Source of the DNA: Acidobacteriota bacterium
GTDB taxonomy: Bacteria; Acidobacteriota; Terriglobia; UBA7540
Assembly: GCA_021827245.1 (NCBI GenBank)
Contig: JAKAWN010000233.1
Span: 2,291 to 10,399 of the forward strand
Length of the DNA: 8,109 bases
Direction of reading: 5' to 3'
Shown here piece after piece: positions 223 through 8,109 of the stretch. Every line of letters starts with the position of its first letter. Position 1 is the first letter of the stretch. The notes under the pieces are model-generated. The model ran no database searches. It saw nothing but the letters and a program-made list of their open reading frames with translations, and was not told the origin of the DNA. Made by a program: the position numbers and the translations under genes.

Positions 223-976
223 TTTTCGTTGACCTCCAGCGATTAAGCCGGATCGTTCCGGAAGTGGGCTGAGACGTCTCATGATGTCGCCGGGCACGTT
301 CACCGCGACGGGTCCGGTCAGTATGGTCATCAAGTTTGCCTTCGACCTCCAATCGAATGATCAGCTCACGGGCGGACCAGCTTGGATCAATTCCGAAGGA
401 TGCGATATCGAAGCGAAGGAGCTTGATTCATCCGTCGAAAGCATGAAGGGCATCCTTTTCCAGACGAGACCAGCGAAATCCGGCTCATGGTCCAATCGAT
501 GCTTGCGGACCGTTTCAAGTTGAAGGTGAGTCGCGAGACGAGAGAACTTCCCGTATATGCTTTGGTGGTCGCGAAGCACGGTCCGAAGCTGACCGAATCG
601 AAACTTCCACCTCCCCGCAATCATGGGTTCCACGGATTGCGGTTTATGGGATGGGGCGATCTATCACGGCAAGCAGCGTCTATGAGTCTCCTGGCTAACG
701 TGCTAACTCAGCACCTGGAGAGACTTGTTGTGGATGAAACGGGGCTCAAAGGTCGGTATGATTTCACCCTCAAATAGACCCGGCCAGGAACAGAGGGCCC
801 TCTTCATGGAGGCTACGGGAGGTAATCCCGGCATGTACAAGGTCGCTCCTGCTGAACTCTCCGGTCCTTCAATTTATACGGCGCTCCAGGAACAGCTCGG
901 GCTGAAACTAAAATCGAGAAAGGCCCCGGTGCCCCTTATTGTAATCGACCACATCGAGCCGCCCACGCCGAATTAG
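223..976 (+). pseudogene. TIGR03435 family protein, multiply frameshifted pseudogene
   Basis: Pieces of one TIGR03435 protein appear in order but in alternating frames. A start resembling F-x-V-A-S-I-K-P is split: FSLTS in frame 1 (223-237) and IKPDRSGSG in frame 2 from 242. Frame 2 then gives PGTFTATG and GGPAWINSEG. Frame 1 gives EIRLMVQSMLADRFKL (475-522), RETRELPVYALVVAKHGPKL, and VVDETGLKGRYDFTLK. Frame 2 again supplies the C-terminus, including LQEQLGLKLKS and IDHIEPPTPN, with stop at 974-976. The frame changes fall near 238-241, 450-455 and 778-790. At 775-777 a TAG stands where the family usually has Trp (FTLxWTP), suggesting TGG to TAG. The usual signal peptide upstream of the FxVASIKP segment is not recognisable. 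The function of the family is unknown; it is expanded in Acidobacteriota (recalled knowledge). No intact product can be made, so the pseudogene call is firm; the left border is approximate. Confidence 0.88.
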
Positions 977-1664: not shown

Positions 1665-3155
1665 TTAAGTGTCAATTTGTGCTCGCTGGAGCCTGTCGCT
1701 GTAGTCGACATAGACGGCCTTCCATTCCGAATAGACGTCCAGCGCAGCGCTGGCCGCTTCGCGGTGTCCATTGCCTGTCTGCTTGGTTCCCCCGAAGGGC
1801 AAGTGGATTTCCGCGCCGATCGTGGGTGCGTTCACATAAAAGATGCCCGTATCCATCTCCTGCATGGCCTTAAAGGCGTTGTTAACATTTCGCGTGTAAA
1901 TTGATGACGAAAGGCCATATACAACACCGTTTCCGATCTCGATTGCATGGTCGAGATTTTCGCATGGAATCAGCGAAACCACGGGCCCGAAAATTTCTTC
2001 CTGGCAAATCCGCATCCGGGACGTGCAGTCGGAAAAGATCGTTGGAGCGTAGAACCACCCACGATCATACTCCGTTCCCGTCAACCGCTTCGCTCCACAA
2101 AGCAGCCTGGCCCCTTCCTGTACGCCGATTTTCACATATTTCTCAACGGTTTTGAGCTGTGCCTCGTTGATAAGCGGTCCCACCTGGACGTCGGGATTCA
2201 TCCCGCTGCCCACTTTCAATTCGCCGACCCGCTGCACGAATCGGCTTGTAAAATCAGCATAGACATCCTTATGGATCACAATACGGCTTGAAGCAGTGCA
2301 ACGCTGGCCGGTTGTTCCAAACCCGCCCCAGATGGCTCCGTCCAGCGCCAGGTCGAGGTTGGCGTCTTCCATCACCAGGATGACGTTCTTCCCGCCCATT
2401 TCCAGGCAAACGCGCTTGAACTGGTCGGCTCCCGCGTGCGCAACTTCCCGGCCAACTTCCGTTGAGCCAGTGAAGGAGACCAGCGGTACATCAGGGTGGC
2501 GGACCAATGGTGCGCCCGCTTCCGGCCCGAACCCGCTCACGCAGTTGACCACTCCCGGCGGTAGCCCCGCTTCCTCAAGCACGCTGACCAAGTTGAAAGT
2601 CGAAAGCGGAGTGTCTTCTGCTGGCTTGATAACCAGCGTATTACCGCAGACCAGTGCTGGCATGATTTTCCACGCAGGAATAGCCATCGGGAAATTCCAC
2701 GGCGTGATCAGGCCGCAGACGCCAATCGGGCTCCGCACGGACATAGAAAATTTGTTGGGAAGCTCAGAGGTTGTTGTTTGTCCCGAGAGCCGGCGGCCCT
2801 CACCAGCCATATAAAATGCCATGTCGATGGCTTCTTGCACGTCGCCCCGAGATTCTTCCAAAGGCTTGCCCATCTCGCGCGACATGTCGCGCGCCAGGGC
2901 GTCTTTGCGCTCCATGAGCAGATGGCCGGCTCGAAACAGGATCTCCGCACGCTTGGGCGGAGGAGTGTGCTTCCAGCCGCGATAGGCTGCTTTGGCCGCT
3001 TCCACCGCTTTTGCAATGTCTTCGGCATTGGACCGCTGAAAACTTCCGGCGACATCATTCGTGTCAGCCGGGTTAATGTTTTCAAATGTCTTACCGCTGA
3101 CTGATTCCAGACGTTTCCCGGCAATAATGTTCTTGTAAATTTGCTTTTCGTTCAT
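1665..3155 (-). CDS. NAD-type aldehyde dehydrogenase
   Basis: A complete 496-residue member of the aldehyde dehydrogenase superfamily, the usual length for a soluble cytoplasmic enzyme oxidising an aldehyde to a carboxylate with NAD(P). The catalytic set is present: Asn154 in TPWNFPM, Lys177 in VIKPAE, the FTGSTEVG turn (228-235), the general base Glu252 in LEMGGKN, the nucleophile Cys286 in TTGQRC, and Glu387/Phe389 in EEIFGP. Glu180, in the KPAE motif, matches the residue that favours NAD over NADP in related enzymes. The C-terminal segment with [13 protein letters not shown] and QTGNGHREA resembles aminoadipic-semialdehyde-dehydrogenase-like and uncharacterised AldH subgroups rather than betaine or succinate-semialdehyde enzymes, but the substrate cannot be read from sequence. 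The ATG at 3155 follows AAGAGGAG closely, a purine-rich Shine-Dalgarno site. No partner gene lies in an operon with it. A hairpin follows the stop. The frame shows no damage. Confidence 0.95.
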
Positions 3156-3453
3156 CGCTCCTCTTTATCGCCATGGCAAACTCCCAAAGAAAAAGGAAGT
3201 CGTCAGATTTTGGGGTAACTCTATACCTTATACATTTGGATGGATTGTGAATACCGCTTGTTGTATTGAATCAAAATGCTGTCTGATAACGCGCGGAGCC
3301 CAGGCACCGGTTTTGCGGCGGGGGCTTTGGGGTGTATAAAATTGGCAGGGCAGAGCAGGGAAGCGAGTAGCGCGTCCATAACTGCCCAACACGAGCCCCT
3401 GATGGAGTCCAATCTGTGTCAGGGGTTATTGTGTCCCAAGTTGGATGAAAATC
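3156..3453. other. Upstream region of the aldehyde dehydrogenase, no gene seen
   Basis: About 300 bases without a supportable gene. The first 130 or so, read on the minus strand, are AT-rich (TGTATAAGGTATAGAG) and probably carry the aldehyde dehydrogenase promoter, although I find no convincing -35/-10 pair. The right copy of the 15-bp direct repeat is at 3303-3317. An inverted repeat, AGCCCCTGA (3394-3402) against TCAGGGGTT (3419-3427) with one G-T pair and a 16-nt loop, lies at the right end. It lacks a T-run on either strand. Confidence 0.5.
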
Positions 3454-3970: not shown

Positions 3971-4076
3971 CCCTCCTCTGCCTCCTTCCCCACTTGGAGG
4001 CTAAGGCTTACCACCTGAAGGGTGATGGGATTAAACCGGGCACGTCGAACTAAAAGTCCTGTAAATTATTGATATG
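3971..4076. other. Spacer between rnpB 3' end and the tnpA remnant
   Basis: This spacer carries the tnpA leader. An inverted repeat, GCCTCC (3980-3985) against GGAGGC (3996-4001), overlaps its probable ribosome-binding region. CACC-TGAAG-GGTG at 4012-4024 is a second, weaker hairpin. One of these may be the 5' end structure of the old IS200-like element. I see no clear intrinsic terminator for rnpB here. Confidence 0.4.
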
Positions 4077-4609
4077 GCGCGAGCAAGCCTGTAAGCCGAA
4101 TTCTGTTCCCCGGCGGACCGGGGCGGCGATCATTCCTCTAGCCCCACCATTGCTGATGGGGTCAAGCGACCTACCCGAGAGTCACCAGCCCGTAGCGGCG
4201 ATCAGCGACCACTGCTCGATGCAACCGAGAGATGCGGTAATCGCGTATCGCCGCTACAGCGCCTTGCGGAGCGGGCCACTCCTCCTCTCCTATTTGGTCT
4301 TGCTCCGTGTGGGGTTTACCCTGCCCCCGATATCACTACCGGGGCGGTGCGCTCTTACATTGAGCCGGCTGACCGGCCGCACCTTTTCACCCTTACCCCG
4401 AAAATCGGGGCGGTATATTTTCTGTGGCACTTTCCGTGCCGGAGGCGTACGCTCCGAACAGAGATCCACCTCCAACCCTCGCTGTTAACGAGCACACTAC
4501 CCTGCGGAGTTCGGACTTTCCTCTCCCCCGCTCCTGCTAGCCCGGCCAAACCCTCACGAGTCTGGCACAAGCGCATTTGCGGAGCAGCGATCGTCTGGCT
4601 TGCCCGCGC
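4077..4609 (-). ncRNA. rnpB: RNase P RNA (bacterial type A-like) with enlarged P16/P17 arm
   Basis: This is the catalytic RNA of ribonuclease P, which matures tRNA 5' ends. Read on the minus strand, the universal signatures occur in order: GAGGAAAGTCC (4513-4523), CCGCAGGG just after it, GTGCCACAGAAAATA, AAGGGTGAAAAGGTGCG, the GAGCGCACC return strand, GTAAACCCCA, GGAGCAAGACCAAATAGG (4289-4306), CGGGTAGGTCGCTTGA (4162-4177) and ACAGAATTCGGCTTAC (4091-4106). Terminal helix P1 closes exactly: GCGCGGGCAAGCC (4597-4609) pairs with GGCTTGCTCGCGC (4077-4089) through 13 pairs with one G-U. These ends give 533 nt, well above the usual 350-400. Much of the excess is 4178-4288, between the P15 strands, where 111 nt replace the 30-40 nt seen in RNAs such as that of Escherichia coli; it contains an 11-bp stem (4192-4202 with 4247-4257). 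A promoter precedes it. Reading frames across this stretch are spurious. Confidence 0.96.
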
Positions 4610-4616
4610 TAGTTCT

Positions 4617-4645
4617 ATGTTAATCTGCCTGTATGGGAGGGTCAA
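4617..4645 (-). promoter_or_regulatory. Sigma70-type promoter of rnpB
   Basis: On the minus strand TTGACC (4640-4645, five of six to consensus) and TAACAT (4617-4622, four of six) are separated by exactly 17 nt. The first base of helix P1 is 7-8 nt downstream of the -10 box, the expected distance to a transcription start at A4610 or G4609. Confidence 0.8.
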
Positions 4646-4700
4646 ACCGCTCTTTAGCCCGGCATTGGCGATTGCCACAATCACTGCTCGCGCCGCTCCA

Positions 4701-4707
4701 GGGAGGA
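4701..4707 (+). promoter_or_regulatory. Ribosome-binding site deciding the metallopeptidase start
   Basis: GGGAGGA stands 12 nt before the ATG at 4720. It is the only purine-rich site near an in-frame start here. The more upstream ATG at 4633 has none and lies inside the rnpB promoter on the other strand. Confidence 0.55.
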
Positions 4708-4719
4708 TTCAGCGCTCTT

Positions 4720-6123
4720 ATGAGAATTACAGCCTTTCGGCCCCGTGCGTGCTGCGAATCGCCGGCCTGCAACCATGGAACCTATGCTAAGGGTGACCGT
4801 GAGCGACGGTGGCGTGCGCTGAAAATCTTTGTTGCGCTCTTTGCCTTCGTCTGCTTTTCGATCGTAACTCCCCTGGTCCTGTCCAGCGAGCCATCACAGG
4901 CTGTCGCCGCGACAGCCCAGAAAGCCGATTCTTCCTCGCTTCTGAACCAGGCCGACCAGATTCTGCAGGAGATGAGCCGCATCACGGTCCTTCCTATCAA
5001 GGCGCCGGTGAAAAAGAAGGTAGTCAGCCGTGCGGAAGTGAGAAAACTGCTGATCCACAACCTACATGCCGATTACACGCCGCAGCAGATCCACGTGCAG
5101 GAAGCGACGCTCCGCGCTTTCGGCCTGATTTCCAAGAGTTTCGACCTGCAAAAATTCCTCATCAGTTTCTACACCGAGCAGGCTGCTGGTTTCTACGATC
5201 CACATACGAAAACGATGTACATCGCTGACTGGATTCCTCCCGACATGCAGAAGATGGTCCTGGCCCACGAACTGACCCACGCCCTTCAGGACCAGAATTT
5301 CAATCTCGAACATTACATGCAAGCGGTGCAAAAGGACGACGATGCGGAGGCCGCCCGGCAGGCCGTCGTGGAGGGATACGCGACCGCTGCCATGTTCCAG
5401 AGCATGATCGGCACGATGCCACTCTCGGATCTGCCCAACCTCGACGCGGTCCTCGAGCCACTCATCCGCGAGAAGATGGCCGAATTCCCTGTTTACTCAA
5501 AAGCTCCTTTCTTCTTCCGGCTGCAGGCGCTTTTCCCTTATGTCCAGGGCTCAGGCTTTATTGAGAAAGGCCTCCGCCGCGGAGATTGGAAGAGTCTAAA
5601 CGGTCTGTTCACGTCTCCGCCCACTTCGACCAAGGCCATCTTCCAGCCGGATATCTATTTCAACCATGTAAAGCTGCCTGAAATTCGGCTTCCGCAGAAG
5701 AACCCGCTCAGTTCAGTACGCGGCCTCAAAATGCTTGATGAGAATACTATGGGAGAACTGGGCTTCGATGCGCTGCTGGGACAATTCCTTTCCGAAGACG
5801 CGGCAAAGACCGCCAGTTCAAACTGGATGGGCGACCGCTATATTGTTTACGAAGATCGTGCCGCTCAAAGTTACGCGCTGATTGCCAGGACTCGTTGGGC
5901 CAGTCCAGAGGCCGCACTCACATTTTTCCGCGATTACCACACGATACTCACCCAGAAATATCCGGAACTATCTCCTGATCCCCGTTCCACGCTTGAGCGG
6001 TTTATCGGCCATGCCTCCTCAGGAGAGGTCATCATGCTCGACATGGGCGACGAGGTTCGCTGGGCCGAAGGCGTGCCTGCCGACAAAGTTGACGCCATGA
6101 CGAAGTGGCTGGCATCCCTTTAG
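4720..6123 (+). CDS. Secreted or membrane-anchored HELTH zinc metallopeptidase-like protein
   Basis: A 467-residue protein when started at the ATG at 4720. A basic stretch (GDRERRWR) precedes a hydrophobic segment at about residues 35-55 (FVALFAFVCFSIV), then an Ala/Ser-rich region, so it is probably exported or anchored with its bulk outside the cytoplasm. The zinc motif HELTH is at residues 183-187 inside KMVLAHELTHALQDQ, preceded by GFYDPHTKTMYIADW, a strand typical of such folds. A likely third ligand is the Glu in VVEGYAT, 31 residues after the last His, the gluzincin arrangement. I recognise similar uncharacterised putative metallopeptidases from acidobacteria but no named family; the substrate is unknown. 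The frame could extend to an ATG at 4633, which I reject on ribosome-binding-site and promoter grounds. It diverges from rnpB. An IS4-family element begins immediately after the TAG, so any native downstream neighbour has been displaced. Confidence 0.8.
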   Translation: MRITAFRPRACCESPACNHGTYAKGDRERRWRALKIFVALFAFVCFSIVTPLVLSSEPSQAVAATAQKADSSSLLNQADQILQEMSRITVLPIKAPVKKKVVSRAEVRKLLIHNLHADYTPQQIHVQEATLRAFGLISKSFDLQKFLISFYTEQAAGFYDPHTKTMYIADWIPPDMQKMVLAHELTHALQDQNFNLEHYMQAVQKDDDAEAARQAVVEGYATAAMFQSMIGTMPLSDLPNLDAVLEPLIREKMAEFPVYSKAPFFFRLQALFPYVQGSGFIEKGLRRGDWKSLNGLFTSPPTSTKAIFQPDIYFNHVKLPEIRLPQKNPLSSVRGLKMLDENTMGELGFDALLGQFLSEDAAKTASSNWMGDRYIVYEDRAAQSYALIARTRWASPEAALTFFRDYHTILTQKYPELSPDPRSTLERFIGHASSGEVIMLDMGDEVRWAEGVPADKVDAMTKWLASL

Positions 6124-6178
6124 CTCCAATACTGTTCAGTTAATGATCCTTAGTACCTATGTTTCAAGATTCTGTGCG
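6124..6178 (-). mobile_element. Detached 3' end of the IS4-family element
   Basis: Read on the minus strand, the segment from 6177 gives GCA CAG AAT CTT GAA ACA TAG (stop 6157-6159). It joins in frame onto the transposase coding sequence ending in TTT TCC GCA at 7813-7821. The remaining bases, ending with AACTGAACAGTATTGG, look like an IS terminus (the plus strand reads CTGTTCAGTTAA at 6132-6143). Assignment rests on frame restoration and adjacency; the partner terminal repeat lies outside the window, so the end cannot be confirmed. Confidence 0.5.
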
Positions 6179-6191
6179 AAACGGGCAGAAA

Positions 6192-6208
6192 GTTGAGTTA
6201 CGACGCGG
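6192..6208. repeat. Left inverted repeat of the nested element
   Basis: GTTGAGTTACGACGCGG is the inverted partner of 7765-7781, with an exact 9-bp outer block, a CGA/TTG mismatch and an exact 5-bp inner block. The stop codon of the 505-residue protein (TAA, 6198-6200 on the minus strand) lies inside it. Confidence 0.6.
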
Positions 6209-7714
6209 CGCTGAAGGCAAGTTGGGGAATGAGCACCAACTCTTTGAGCTTCAGGGCGGCGGCGATGATTTCTTTGCCGAAGTGGGTGAGGTAATAGCGG
6301 TACGTGCGGCCCACTTTTTTGATGAATCCGTGGAGCCGCAGGCGTTTCAGCAGGCGCGACACTTGCCCGCCGCTGTTCTGGGGCAGGTGGTCGCGCAGGG
6401 TTCGGTTCTGTAGGCACGGATATTGAACTCGCCTCGGGCGAGAGCTTCGATCAGTTGCTGATCTTCTTCCGAGAAGAGGTTGAAACCCCGATAGGACCGC
6501 TCATGCTCGATCACGGTTTCCGACAGCTTGCGCAACTTCTCGACCCCGGTGCGGGGATCGGCGAGGGCCGAGATAAATTCCAAGTAGCGCCGGTTGGCGG
6601 CGCGCAGGGCCTCGCGCAAGGCGGGCAAGCTGTAGAGGGTCTTCTTCATGTGCGTCCATTTGGTGATGCGGGTTCCATCGCGCTGTTCCACCTCGCGGTA
6701 GTGCGGGAAAAAGGAGACGTCGTTGACGGTGGTCTCGATGCGCAGGATGAGGCCGAACTTGTCGTACATCTTCAAGCTCACGGGTCCCATGGTGTGTTTA
6801 ATCCGCGTCCCTTGGATGCGAAGGTCGAAGCGGTTTCCGATTTCGTCCTGATAGTTCCCGTGCAGCTTCTTACCCAAGAAGGTAGCCACGTGCTCGGGCT
6901 TGACGGCGTGGATGGCGGTGCGCGTCAGGTTCTCATAGAGGGTCTGCAAGTCCGCTTGGCGACGGAACACGATGTCCGTAGCATACTCGGTCTGATTCAG
7001 GCTCCAGTGGTAAGACACCCCCAAGCCGGCGATGACCGGACAGTAGCGCCGGGCGAACTCGTCCAGCTTGTGATGAATCTTCTCCACACGCCAGCCCTCG
7101 GCCAAACGCTGCGCCTGTTCCCAATCGGCGATCTGCGTGAAGGCGTTGTCGAGCAAGGTGTAGTCGAGGTGGCGTTGGCGCAATTGGGCGGCCAGCCAGT
7201 GATGGCCGTTGAGATAAACCTGCAGCCGAAAGGGGCACCAGGTCGGAACGCGGACGTAGCCCAAGCCCAATTCTTCGTCGAGGAAATAAAAGTAGTAGTG
7301 CAGACACTTGCCGTCGGCGGGCCGCAAGAAGGTCTTCCCGCTTTTCTTGGCGTGCCAAGGCTGGTAGCTGGCGCAAGGTTCCATGGCCGAGAAGATGCAT
7401 ACCAGGCCGGGATGGCGCCCGCGCTTCGCGAGGATTTCTTTCACCCGGGCTTCTTTGCGGAAATTCTTTTTGCGGATGAACAGGATCTCCAAACCCTGCT
7501 CGGCCGCCACTCGCTCGGCATTCTCGCGCAAGGCGTGGCGCAGCGGCTGAGCAAAGCGGGGGTAATCAAAAATCCGGATCTGCCGAGCCTTCAGGTATGC
7601 CGTCATGCCCTCGGCATAACAGAGGCCCGGCAACGTGCCTTGGATCAAGATGCGGTCGTAACACGAAAGCACGCCCGCCATTTCAGCAGCATGTCGCTCG
7701 GTCAACAGTTCCAT
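6198..7714 (-). pseudogene. Unnamed 505-residue element protein, one-base frameshift before its winged-helix-like C-terminus
   Basis: The start is ATG at 7714 (MELLTERHAAEM), with GGAAGGG just upstream; a GTG at 7726 is less likely. As it stands the frame ends at 6347, in a Cys-rich tail that looks out of frame. Adding one base near 6414 (CGT-GCC-TAC should be CGT-GGC-CTA) continues to TAA at 6198-6200 through NIRGLQNRTLRDHLP, GGQVSRLLKRLRLHGFI and VGRTYRYYLTHFGK, a winged-helix-like domain. Conserved-looking blocks are DRILIQGTLPGLCY (20-33), FSAMEPCASYQPWH (108-121), GKCLHYYFYFLDE (135-147), RVPTWCPFRLQVYLNGHHW (155-173) and GTRIKHTMG followed by KMYDKFGLILRIETT (315-329). Many near-identical proteins are annotated as hypothetical in environmental genomes (recollection, unverified). 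Position inside inverted repeats in an IS suggests a transposase or mobilisation role; no catalytic motif is proven. A sequencing error instead of a mutation is possible. Confidence 0.7.
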
Positions 7715-7764
7715 GGCCCTTCCCACTTTCCTGGGAGGAAGACATCATAGAGAACCTGCCGAGC

Positions 7765-7781
7765 CCGCGCAATAACTCAAC
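7765..7781. repeat. Right inverted repeat of the nested element
   Basis: Read on the minus strand it is GTTGAGTTATTGCGCGG, partner of 6192-6208. The TGA that now ends the IS4 transposase frame (7777-7779) lies within it, so the present C-terminus of that transposase is probably supplied by the inserted element. Confidence 0.6.
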
Positions 7782-8109
7782 CTGTTTGGCTCCGGCTACG
7801 CCGGGTTAGGGATGCGGAAAAGTCGATGCGGCGCGTCAGCCCCCGCTTGCAGAGCCGCAGTGGGTAGTTACTCATTTTGCGCTTTACTCCGCGAGGGTTG
7901 ATACGGTGGCGACTGGAACTGACGCGCTCCTGTAAAATCTCCTGGAGGATGGCCTCATGAAAGGCTCTTTTCCGCCGAGGGGGGAATAGCAGCATAGCGG
8001 GCCATGCGCCGTTGTACCACGCGCACGGCATGGAGGAAGGAGAGGTGGTCGGGGTCTTCGTCCGCCTCGAGTGCGGCCTCGTGCATGAGGCCGCGAATGG
8101 CAAAGTGAG
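7777..8109 (-). pseudogene. IS4-family transposase, C-terminal part, frameshifted and truncated by the window edge
   Basis: Two minus-strand frames join into the C-terminus of an IS4-type DDE transposase. From the edge, codons starting at 8107 read HFAIRGLMHEAALEADEDPD and LSFLHAVRVVQRRMARYAAIP. After a run of six C (7979-7984) the match shifts one frame to PPRRKRAFHEAILQEILQER, VSSSRHRINPRGVKRKMSNY and PLRLCKRGLTRRIDFSAS. Five C would keep one frame, so a single C has been gained (or misread). The last residues, SLTRRSRSQTG, are atypical and end at a TGA inside the inverted repeat of the neighbouring element; the probable original end is at 6157-6177. The catalytic DDE residues lie mostly upstream, outside the window. 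IS4 transposases catalyse cut-and-paste transposition. Mutation seems more likely than programmed frameshifting, because the shift comes so late in the protein. Confidence 0.82.

Follow-up and report, generated by a model that had tools for sequence, protein, structure and literature searches.

A very common, unclassified insertion sequence with a hairpin end and a candidate Rep_trans-like transposase, found within an IS4-family gene of an Acidobacteriota bacterium

The stretch of 8,109 nucleotides from an Acidobacteriota bacterium analysed here (contig JAKAWN010000233.1, positions 2,291 to 10,399; hereafter referred to as the window) contains a mobile element of 1,656 bp that occupies positions 6151 to 7806 on the minus strand and interrupts the 3' end of an IS4-family transposase gene. 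This element is best read as a member of a new class of insertion sequence (IS) that moves as a nicked strand by means of a Rep_trans-like transposase; its mobility was deduced from the comparison of copies, and its chemistry is what we infer from the predicted protein. The mobile element and its borders are almost certainly real, and the unit, its borders, the Rep_trans-like transposase and the mechanism proposed below are, taken jointly, considered likely. The family is very common and unnamed and matches none of the curated families searched.

Borders of the mobile unit and the restored IS4 gene

The minus strand of the window from position 8109 onwards represents an IS4-type transposase frame that runs into foreign DNA. 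This upstream part of the interrupted gene (7807 to 8109, minus strand) was assigned by tblastn to IS4-family (ISBvi1-like) transposases, which were detected in seven plasmid records and in 8 of the 396 Acidobacteriota genomes searched; the alignment with the plasmid-borne transposases reaches residue 85 of the window frame. Joining of the flanks of the element at CTA/A (the slash marks the cut) yields ...RIDFSASLRIIN, a stop codon and then ACAGTATTG, and brings the C-terminus of the IS4 transposase back in frame. An uninterrupted IS4 copy (L044) reads WINFSKHLWIIK, a stop codon and ACAGTATTG, with a residue number equal to that of the rejoined window and without any gap. Since the rejoined flanks match L044 in register, the inserted unit corresponds to the minus strand from 7806, where it begins with AC and a hairpin, to 6151, where it terminates with GGTACTA, and the same borders were found in relatives of the element. 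Six of the 12 uninterrupted IS4 loci examined, namely those with a readable end (L044, L045, L046, L049, L051 and L052, from four genomes), show the stop codon TGA followed by AC[AT]GTATTG, and an end of this type is present in the window at 6138-6127. The 3' remnant of the IS4 gene (6127 to 6150, minus strand) consists of the codons for RIIN, the stop TGA at 6138-6136 and the IS end ACAGTATTG.

According to the initial annotation, an IS4-family copy had received, in its 3' end, an unclassified element that moved as one piece, a view that is borne out by the interrupted frame, the empty site restored on joining the flanks, the borders shared by relatives and the core without a curated family match. 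The segment 7777-7812, suspected of being a natural part of the IS4 3' end, is missing from the six loci with a readable end. The junction originally suggested, TTTTCCGCA joined to CAGAATCTTGAAACATAG, had to be replaced; it gives ...RIDFSAQNLET and a stop codon, but leaves RIIN, its stop and ACAGTATTG behind that stop, and its cuts miss the true borders by 6 nt on the left and 24 nt on the right. An uninterrupted IS4 copy with a DFSAQNLET-like end was named as what would fix the junctions; L044 carries WINFSKHLWIIK and a stop instead, supporting CTA/A. Likewise, TGCG as a 4-bp duplication proved to be a chance match, and a 4-bp target duplication is rejected, since equal left and right 4-mers occur in 0 of the 22 paired copies with full flanks from the Acidobacteriota genome G008.

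A 17-bp inverted repeat with arms at 7765 to 7781 and 6192 to 6208 had been taken to bound the element. The repeat exists (82% complementary) and is one of 18 inverted pairs of at least 14 nt reported for the window, but its arms lie 25 and 41 nt inside the ends. Terminal inverted repeats are therefore ruled out for the window element, and none were found in the family. The existence of this repeat would favour a conventional DDE-type IS bounded by inverted repeats, and the annotation of a plasmid relative as ArsR family transcriptional regulator would favour a host regulator. Both readings are already contradicted by the borders, as the unit interrupts IS4 with a clean empty site, the repeats are internal and no DDE family matched in the library scans; internal repeats and the 22 unequal 4-mer pairs likewise set the element apart from DDE insertion sequences, and the probability of either reading is negligible.

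Predicted fold and candidate active site of the element protein

The transposase-like gene of the element (6347 to 7714, minus strand) is open for 455 codons from an ATG at 7714, located 92 nt from the left end, and codons 1 to about 385 represent the putative catalytic core, as delimited by homology and by the predicted fold of residues 1-385. The claim of one 505-residue gene between the repeats holds with respect to a large single gene, but the open frame has only 455 codons and is frameshifted near 6412-6416. The relative P0004 (505 aa) is 85% identical to the window protein and continues into a winged-helix tail; its residues 435-505 match the window in another frame with 94% identity (tblastn), so that the out-of-frame rest of the C-terminal winged-helix domain extends over 6198 to 6421 (minus strand) and ends at TAA 6200-6198. 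Because the winged-helix part is out of frame, the window copy is probably inactive, unless the frameshift is a sequencing error.

As the complete model matched PDB structures mostly through the winged helix at residues 388-505, a separate model of the core was computed. The predicted core (residues 1-385) adopts the TBP-like fold of Rep_trans rolling-circle endonucleases, with 4cij as the top PDB match (E 2e-4), and is followed by a MarR-like winged helix. The candidate active site is composed of D20, Q241-x-E243-x-A245-x-D247, K315-x-Y317-x-K319 and R325-x-E327 (P0004 numbering for Y317), of which D20, E243, K315, Y317, R325 and E327 are invariant in 34 of 34 rows of the protein alignment A1, down to 24% identity. 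Y317 resides on a predicted strand, and a strand-borne tyrosine distinguishes Rep_trans from HUH enzymes according to excerpts of a review on rolling-circle enzymes (PMC5714925). Excerpts of the structural work on RepDE (PMC4797284) name Y191 as nucleophile, D46, D142 and E214 as metal ligands, and R140, A144, D146, R189, K193 and R212 among the conserved neighbours, and the pT181 Rep sequence contains the matching stretches RLDLAFD, RIYNK and RVE. Along the sequence, D, ExAxD, KxYxK and RxE appear to follow one another at local distances like those in the solved Rep_trans centre, with deviations from the Rep_trans set D, RxD, YxKxxE and W/LxRxE in that R is changed to Q, D is changed to E and the last E of YxKxxE is absent. 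With candidate catalytic residues matched by sequence order on a predicted model, the enzyme is probably a Rep_trans-like transposase.

A number of null results weigh against this assignment. The family PF02486 was not listed for the window protein (E ≤ 1) or for P0004 (E ≤ 10), was missing from the 25 families displayed, out of 28, in a scan of 33 members, and was detected in 0 of the 2 genomes searched, G008 and G074 (E ≤ 10), and a profile comparison with 13 closely related Reps was null as well. Moreover, motif II, T/SxY/ExG, does not occur in the conserved stretch before Y317, in which G302, R304, I305, K306 and H307 are nearly invariant in A1, and the last E of motif III is missing. The lack of a sequence-level Rep_trans match could also mean that the element is a new-class transposon whose TBP-like fold only binds DNA and whose cutting chemistry is different, involving for example E112 and Y143. 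TBP itself binds DNA and scores above Rep_trans in the PDB fold comparison of the core, and E112 and Y143 are invariant too; the succession of D, ExAxD, KxYxK and RxE and the distances within these motifs nevertheless fit the solved Rep_trans centre, and different chemistry is regarded as quite unlikely. E112 and Y143, a second invariant Glu and Tyr in A1, are situated in the first half of the core and perhaps form a second active or binding site.

With respect to the protein family, at least 7,996 relatives (protein clusters) were recorded, representing 7,996 of the 7,998 scored candidates at E ≤ 1e-3. The names given by the sources among 120 listed relatives read 'hypothetical protein', and 109 of the 120 have a length of 504-513 aa, which leaves programmed frameshifting unsupported. 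The proteins P0001 (the window's own), P0002, P0003, P0032, P0065 and P0105 comprise 455-458 aa, each with a differently shifted tail, and are read from their sequences as products of independent decay or sequencing error. With P0074 included, seven of the 120 listed relatives have a frameshift in nearly the same place, between core and winged helix, a clustering that may reflect ascertainment, decay or a hot spot. The core had no match of curated or convincing level in Pfam, NCBIfam, PHROG or PDB sequence searches, models of the winged-helix type gave weak matches, among them PF25213, which was seen in 23 of the 33 members and reached 3e-5 at best, and a PADLOC search gave two weak matches only. 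A relative is present in 15 of 398 Pseudomonadota genomes, and in draft genomes many family copies are found where a contig ends. More distant relatives, with about 20-35% identity, were observed on large plasmids of Rhodococcus, Mycobacteriaceae, Caballeronia and Paraburkholderia, at one to four places per record. At locus L001, around 3128-3220, the element gene is interrupted by a roughly 0.1-kb insert with inverted AACAGCACCA and TGGTGCTGTT.

Conserved ends, gene-less copies and the proposed mechanism

The ends of the family were deduced from 60 fetched stretches of G008 and 20 of G074, both Acidobacteriota genomes. The same borders recurred at different sites with random flanks, comprising 65 left and 54 right ends in G008 and 22 left and 16 right ends in G074, so that the relatives do have the common boundaries by which the initial annotation was to be checked. 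The G008 left flanks (n=65) are mixed up to position -7 and then show C in 64, C/A in 64, T/C in 64 and A in 63 copies, and the element side starts with A-C-GCGG; the G074 left ends (n=22) agree with this pattern. The resulting target consensus C[CA]YA is represented in the window by CCTA just outside the left end (7807 to 7810, minus strand), and upstream of the gene diverged copies share CCTAA-[CG]CCGGnnnnGCCGGAACCAAA or CATAG-CGCGGnnnnGCCGCAACCAAA. At the right end, the element itself carries ACTA (6151 to 6154 in the window, minus strand), which is found in 39 of 54 right ends in G008 and in 9 of 16 in G074, most of the remaining ends having near variants. The base following the G008 right end is A in 28, T in 13, G in 9 and C in 4 of the 54 cases, with mixed bases beyond. 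A cut after CTAA instead of CTA is disfavoured by this distribution, although G074 has A at this place throughout (16 of 16). The last three bases are equal in 9 of the 22 G008 pairs, as expected for the target CCTA. Empty sites were judged for the window copy, for L167 and for the copy on pOLGA1: in L167, a short copy between 7-bp repeats, the repeat phase is kept across the cut CCA/G, and for the pOLGA1 copy an empty site was searched and none was found. Several G008 copies end directly next to one recurring TGCTCATTCGAC sequence on their right side, and other right ends are located inside a CTAGYCC-like 7-bp repeat, which may point to favoured insertion sites or to another family of repeats.

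The left-end hairpin of the window, CCGGC-GTA-GCCGG (7792 to 7804, minus strand), is followed by AGCCAAACAGG (7781-7791). In an alignment of 19 selected left ends, which represent two related groups obtained with a search expression that favoured the inner pairs and left the outer pair free, 93.7% of the cells are paired in the five-pair hairpin, and pairing drops to at most 47% once the partner is slid. The outer pair is C-G in nine ends, G-C in nine and unpaired in one; the covariation score was reached by 0 of 500 shuffles, with covariation limited to one of the five pairs and a count of two-sided changing pairs not above shuffles. The outer pair, left free in the exact left-end pattern as well, is formed in 35 of its 37 matches in G074. 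Folding z-scores of four left hairpins (-0.78 to -1.18) are not exceptional, right ends gave -0.20, -2.27 and -0.06, and at the right end of the window the folding does not surpass that of shuffled sequences; a conserved hairpin was seen at the left end only.

The exact left-end pattern was detected 158 times in G008, 45 times in G183, 38 times in G229 and 37 times in G074, with no match of the reversed control in any of the four, and over 371 genomes 385 matches faced 7 of the control. The distance from hairpin to right end is 189-253 bp in all 23 pairable G008 copies and 140-654 bp in nine G074 copies, and these copies are accordingly too short to hold the gene; L038, a G074 copy that does carry the gene, has the same right end as short copies of that genome. 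Of the 24 gene-positive genomes among these 371, 16 contain the left-end pattern, compared with 16 of the 347 others (Fisher p 7e-14), and five or more copies were counted in 7 of 24 and 4 of 347 genomes, respectively (p 5e-7), where gene-positive denotes any match at E ≤ 1e-3, fragments included, to one query with at most three candidates scored per genome. Ten of the 16 gene-negative, pattern-positive genomes have a single match that may be due to chance. The gene-negative genomes G032, G069, G285 and G310 contain 7-13 left-end matches each and may hold remote genes, since the gene search was confined to one query and three candidates per genome. The orientation of copies versus GC skew revealed no lagging-strand bias (32 of 68 and 10 of 22) at the weak skew present (median 0.015 and 0.020).

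Fourteen right-to-left tandem junctions, chosen because they were visible in the end stretches examined and captured by an expression allowing four 4-mers only, comprise 12 of the type ACTA/AC-hairpin and two of the type CCCA/AC. The neighbour's ACTA thus stands in place of C[CA]YA in 12 of the 14 junctions, which disfavours the possibility that the left motif is carried by the element. The junctions fit insertion beside a copy and multimer resolution alike. In the two CCCA junctions, L241 (G008:C156) and L245 (G074:C118), the sequence is AGA[CT]-CCCA/AC, with CCCA replacing the ACTA of the upstream copy, and these cases are unexplained by simple insertion.

In the proposed mechanism, a single protein would combine a TBP-fold, Rep_trans-like single-tyrosine endonuclease with a MarR-like winged helix, and both parts would recognise the left hairpin. 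Y317 (P0004) would nick the gene-sense strand at both borders, following C[CA]YA on the left and ACTA on the right, in a manner likened to the Rep_trans cut beside the hairpin of a plasmid origin; the resemblance of C[CA]YA to ACTA is expected if one enzyme cuts and rejoins both. The released strand, perhaps a circle joined as ACTA/AC, would insert on the 3' side of another C[CA]YA, leaving the target unduplicated, and the same ends could allow the 505-aa protein to mobilise the short gene-less copies.

The same anatomy, comprising a hairpin end, a short adjoining target motif, no 4-bp target duplication and gene-less copies, would be displayed by an element of the IS200/IS605 or IS91 type that uses a tyrosine transposase of the HUH class. 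This alternative is very unlikely, as no HUH transposase family was among the Pfam, NCBIfam and PHROGs matches shown (25 of 28 families in one scan), neither the Y1 type of TnpA nor the Y2 type of IS91/ISCR; H307 is the only nearly invariant His in A1, and hence there is no conserved H-x-H, and the protein is predicted to fold like TBP and to carry its conserved Tyr on a strand. It is also unlikely that the unit is a rolling-circle plasmid or phage satellite in integrated form, replicated by its Rep as a circle and integrating only occasionally. Excerpts of PMC5714925 describe Rep_trans enzymes as working for plasmids, phages and conjugative elements, circles could yield head-to-tail junctions, and the core, MarR-like domain and hairpin resemble archaeal Rep-Arvir replicons as depicted in excerpts of PMC13107129; on the other hand, both ends are precise, a target motif is present, many gene-less copies share the same ends, no relative was found in phage records and no close relative in viral contigs, and the window unit is devoid of any other gene.

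Genomic context, related systems and implications

Beyond the IS4 end, the window contains a 496-codon open reading frame with a DUF6782 / M78-like metallopeptidase region (4633-6123, plus strand), the stop of which is a few bases from the IS4 end, indicating that the IS4 inserted right at the end of that gene. Further features are a full-length bacterial RNase P RNA of class A (4076-4606, minus strand; 243 bits), the sole Rfam match at gathering threshold within the window, an aldehyde dehydrogenase gene (1665-3155, minus strand; E 9e-173) and a DUF3738 fragment (487-777, plus strand), a domain typical of Acidobacteriota.

Insertion sequences are sorted by transposase type into DDE, DEDD, HUH, serine and tyrosine recombinase groups, and those of the IS200/IS605 type insert without target duplication. 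The element shares a hairpin, a short tetranucleotide beside one end and many small gene-less copies with IS200/IS605 (excerpts of PMC6006769) and REP/RAYT systems (excerpts of PMC3733652), but differs from both in its enzyme, which has about 505 aa, a TBP-like core and lacks a conserved HUH motif, and in having its conserved hairpin at the left end only. IS91 and Helitron elements likewise lack inverted repeats and duplications and use a replication-type tyrosine enzyme (excerpts of PMC5714925), whereas their HUH Y2 enzymes, of unrelated fold, act on ori/ter ends. Rep_trans initiators (PF02486; RepDE, RepSTK1) have in common with the element protein the TBP-like fold and the equal order of acidic residues and strand-borne Tyr, and their plasmid systems the hairpin beside the nick site (excerpts of PMC4797284), but there is no sequence-level match, and the element protein stands alone in an inserting unit with precise ends, shows neither motif II nor the final E of motif III and carries an extra C-terminal winged helix. 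The archaeal virus and plasmid initiators of the Rep-Arvir type (PF25227) likewise place a MarR-like winged helix behind a TBP-like core of the Rep_trans type and have a hairpin as cis element (excerpts of PMC13107129), and two BFVD entries are matched in common; they belong to archaeal replicons, not insertion sequences, and PF25227 was not listed for P0004 or the window protein.

In excerpts of the rolling-circle enzyme review (PMC5714925), HUH enzymes are described as transposases, and Rep_trans enzymes are assigned to plasmids, phages and conjugative elements, not to transposition. Searches of the open-licence literature, as judged by the papers listed, showed neither a Rep_trans-type transposase nor this IS family; an earlier entry in the ISfinder catalogue or a preprint may exist. 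We moderately favour the wider view that a Rep_trans-type (TBP-fold) tyrosine endonuclease serves as transposase of a very abundant IS family and its miniature derivatives, combining HUH-like hairpin-and-target logic from an unrelated fold with the core-plus-MarR design shared with archaeal Rep-Arvir. If the enzyme is a relative of Rep_trans, thousands of proteins now called 'hypothetical' could be given a name, and an unrelated nuclease would have given rise to single-strand transposition for the second time. The way in which a replication initiator becomes a transposase would then be testable with one small protein and one hairpin.
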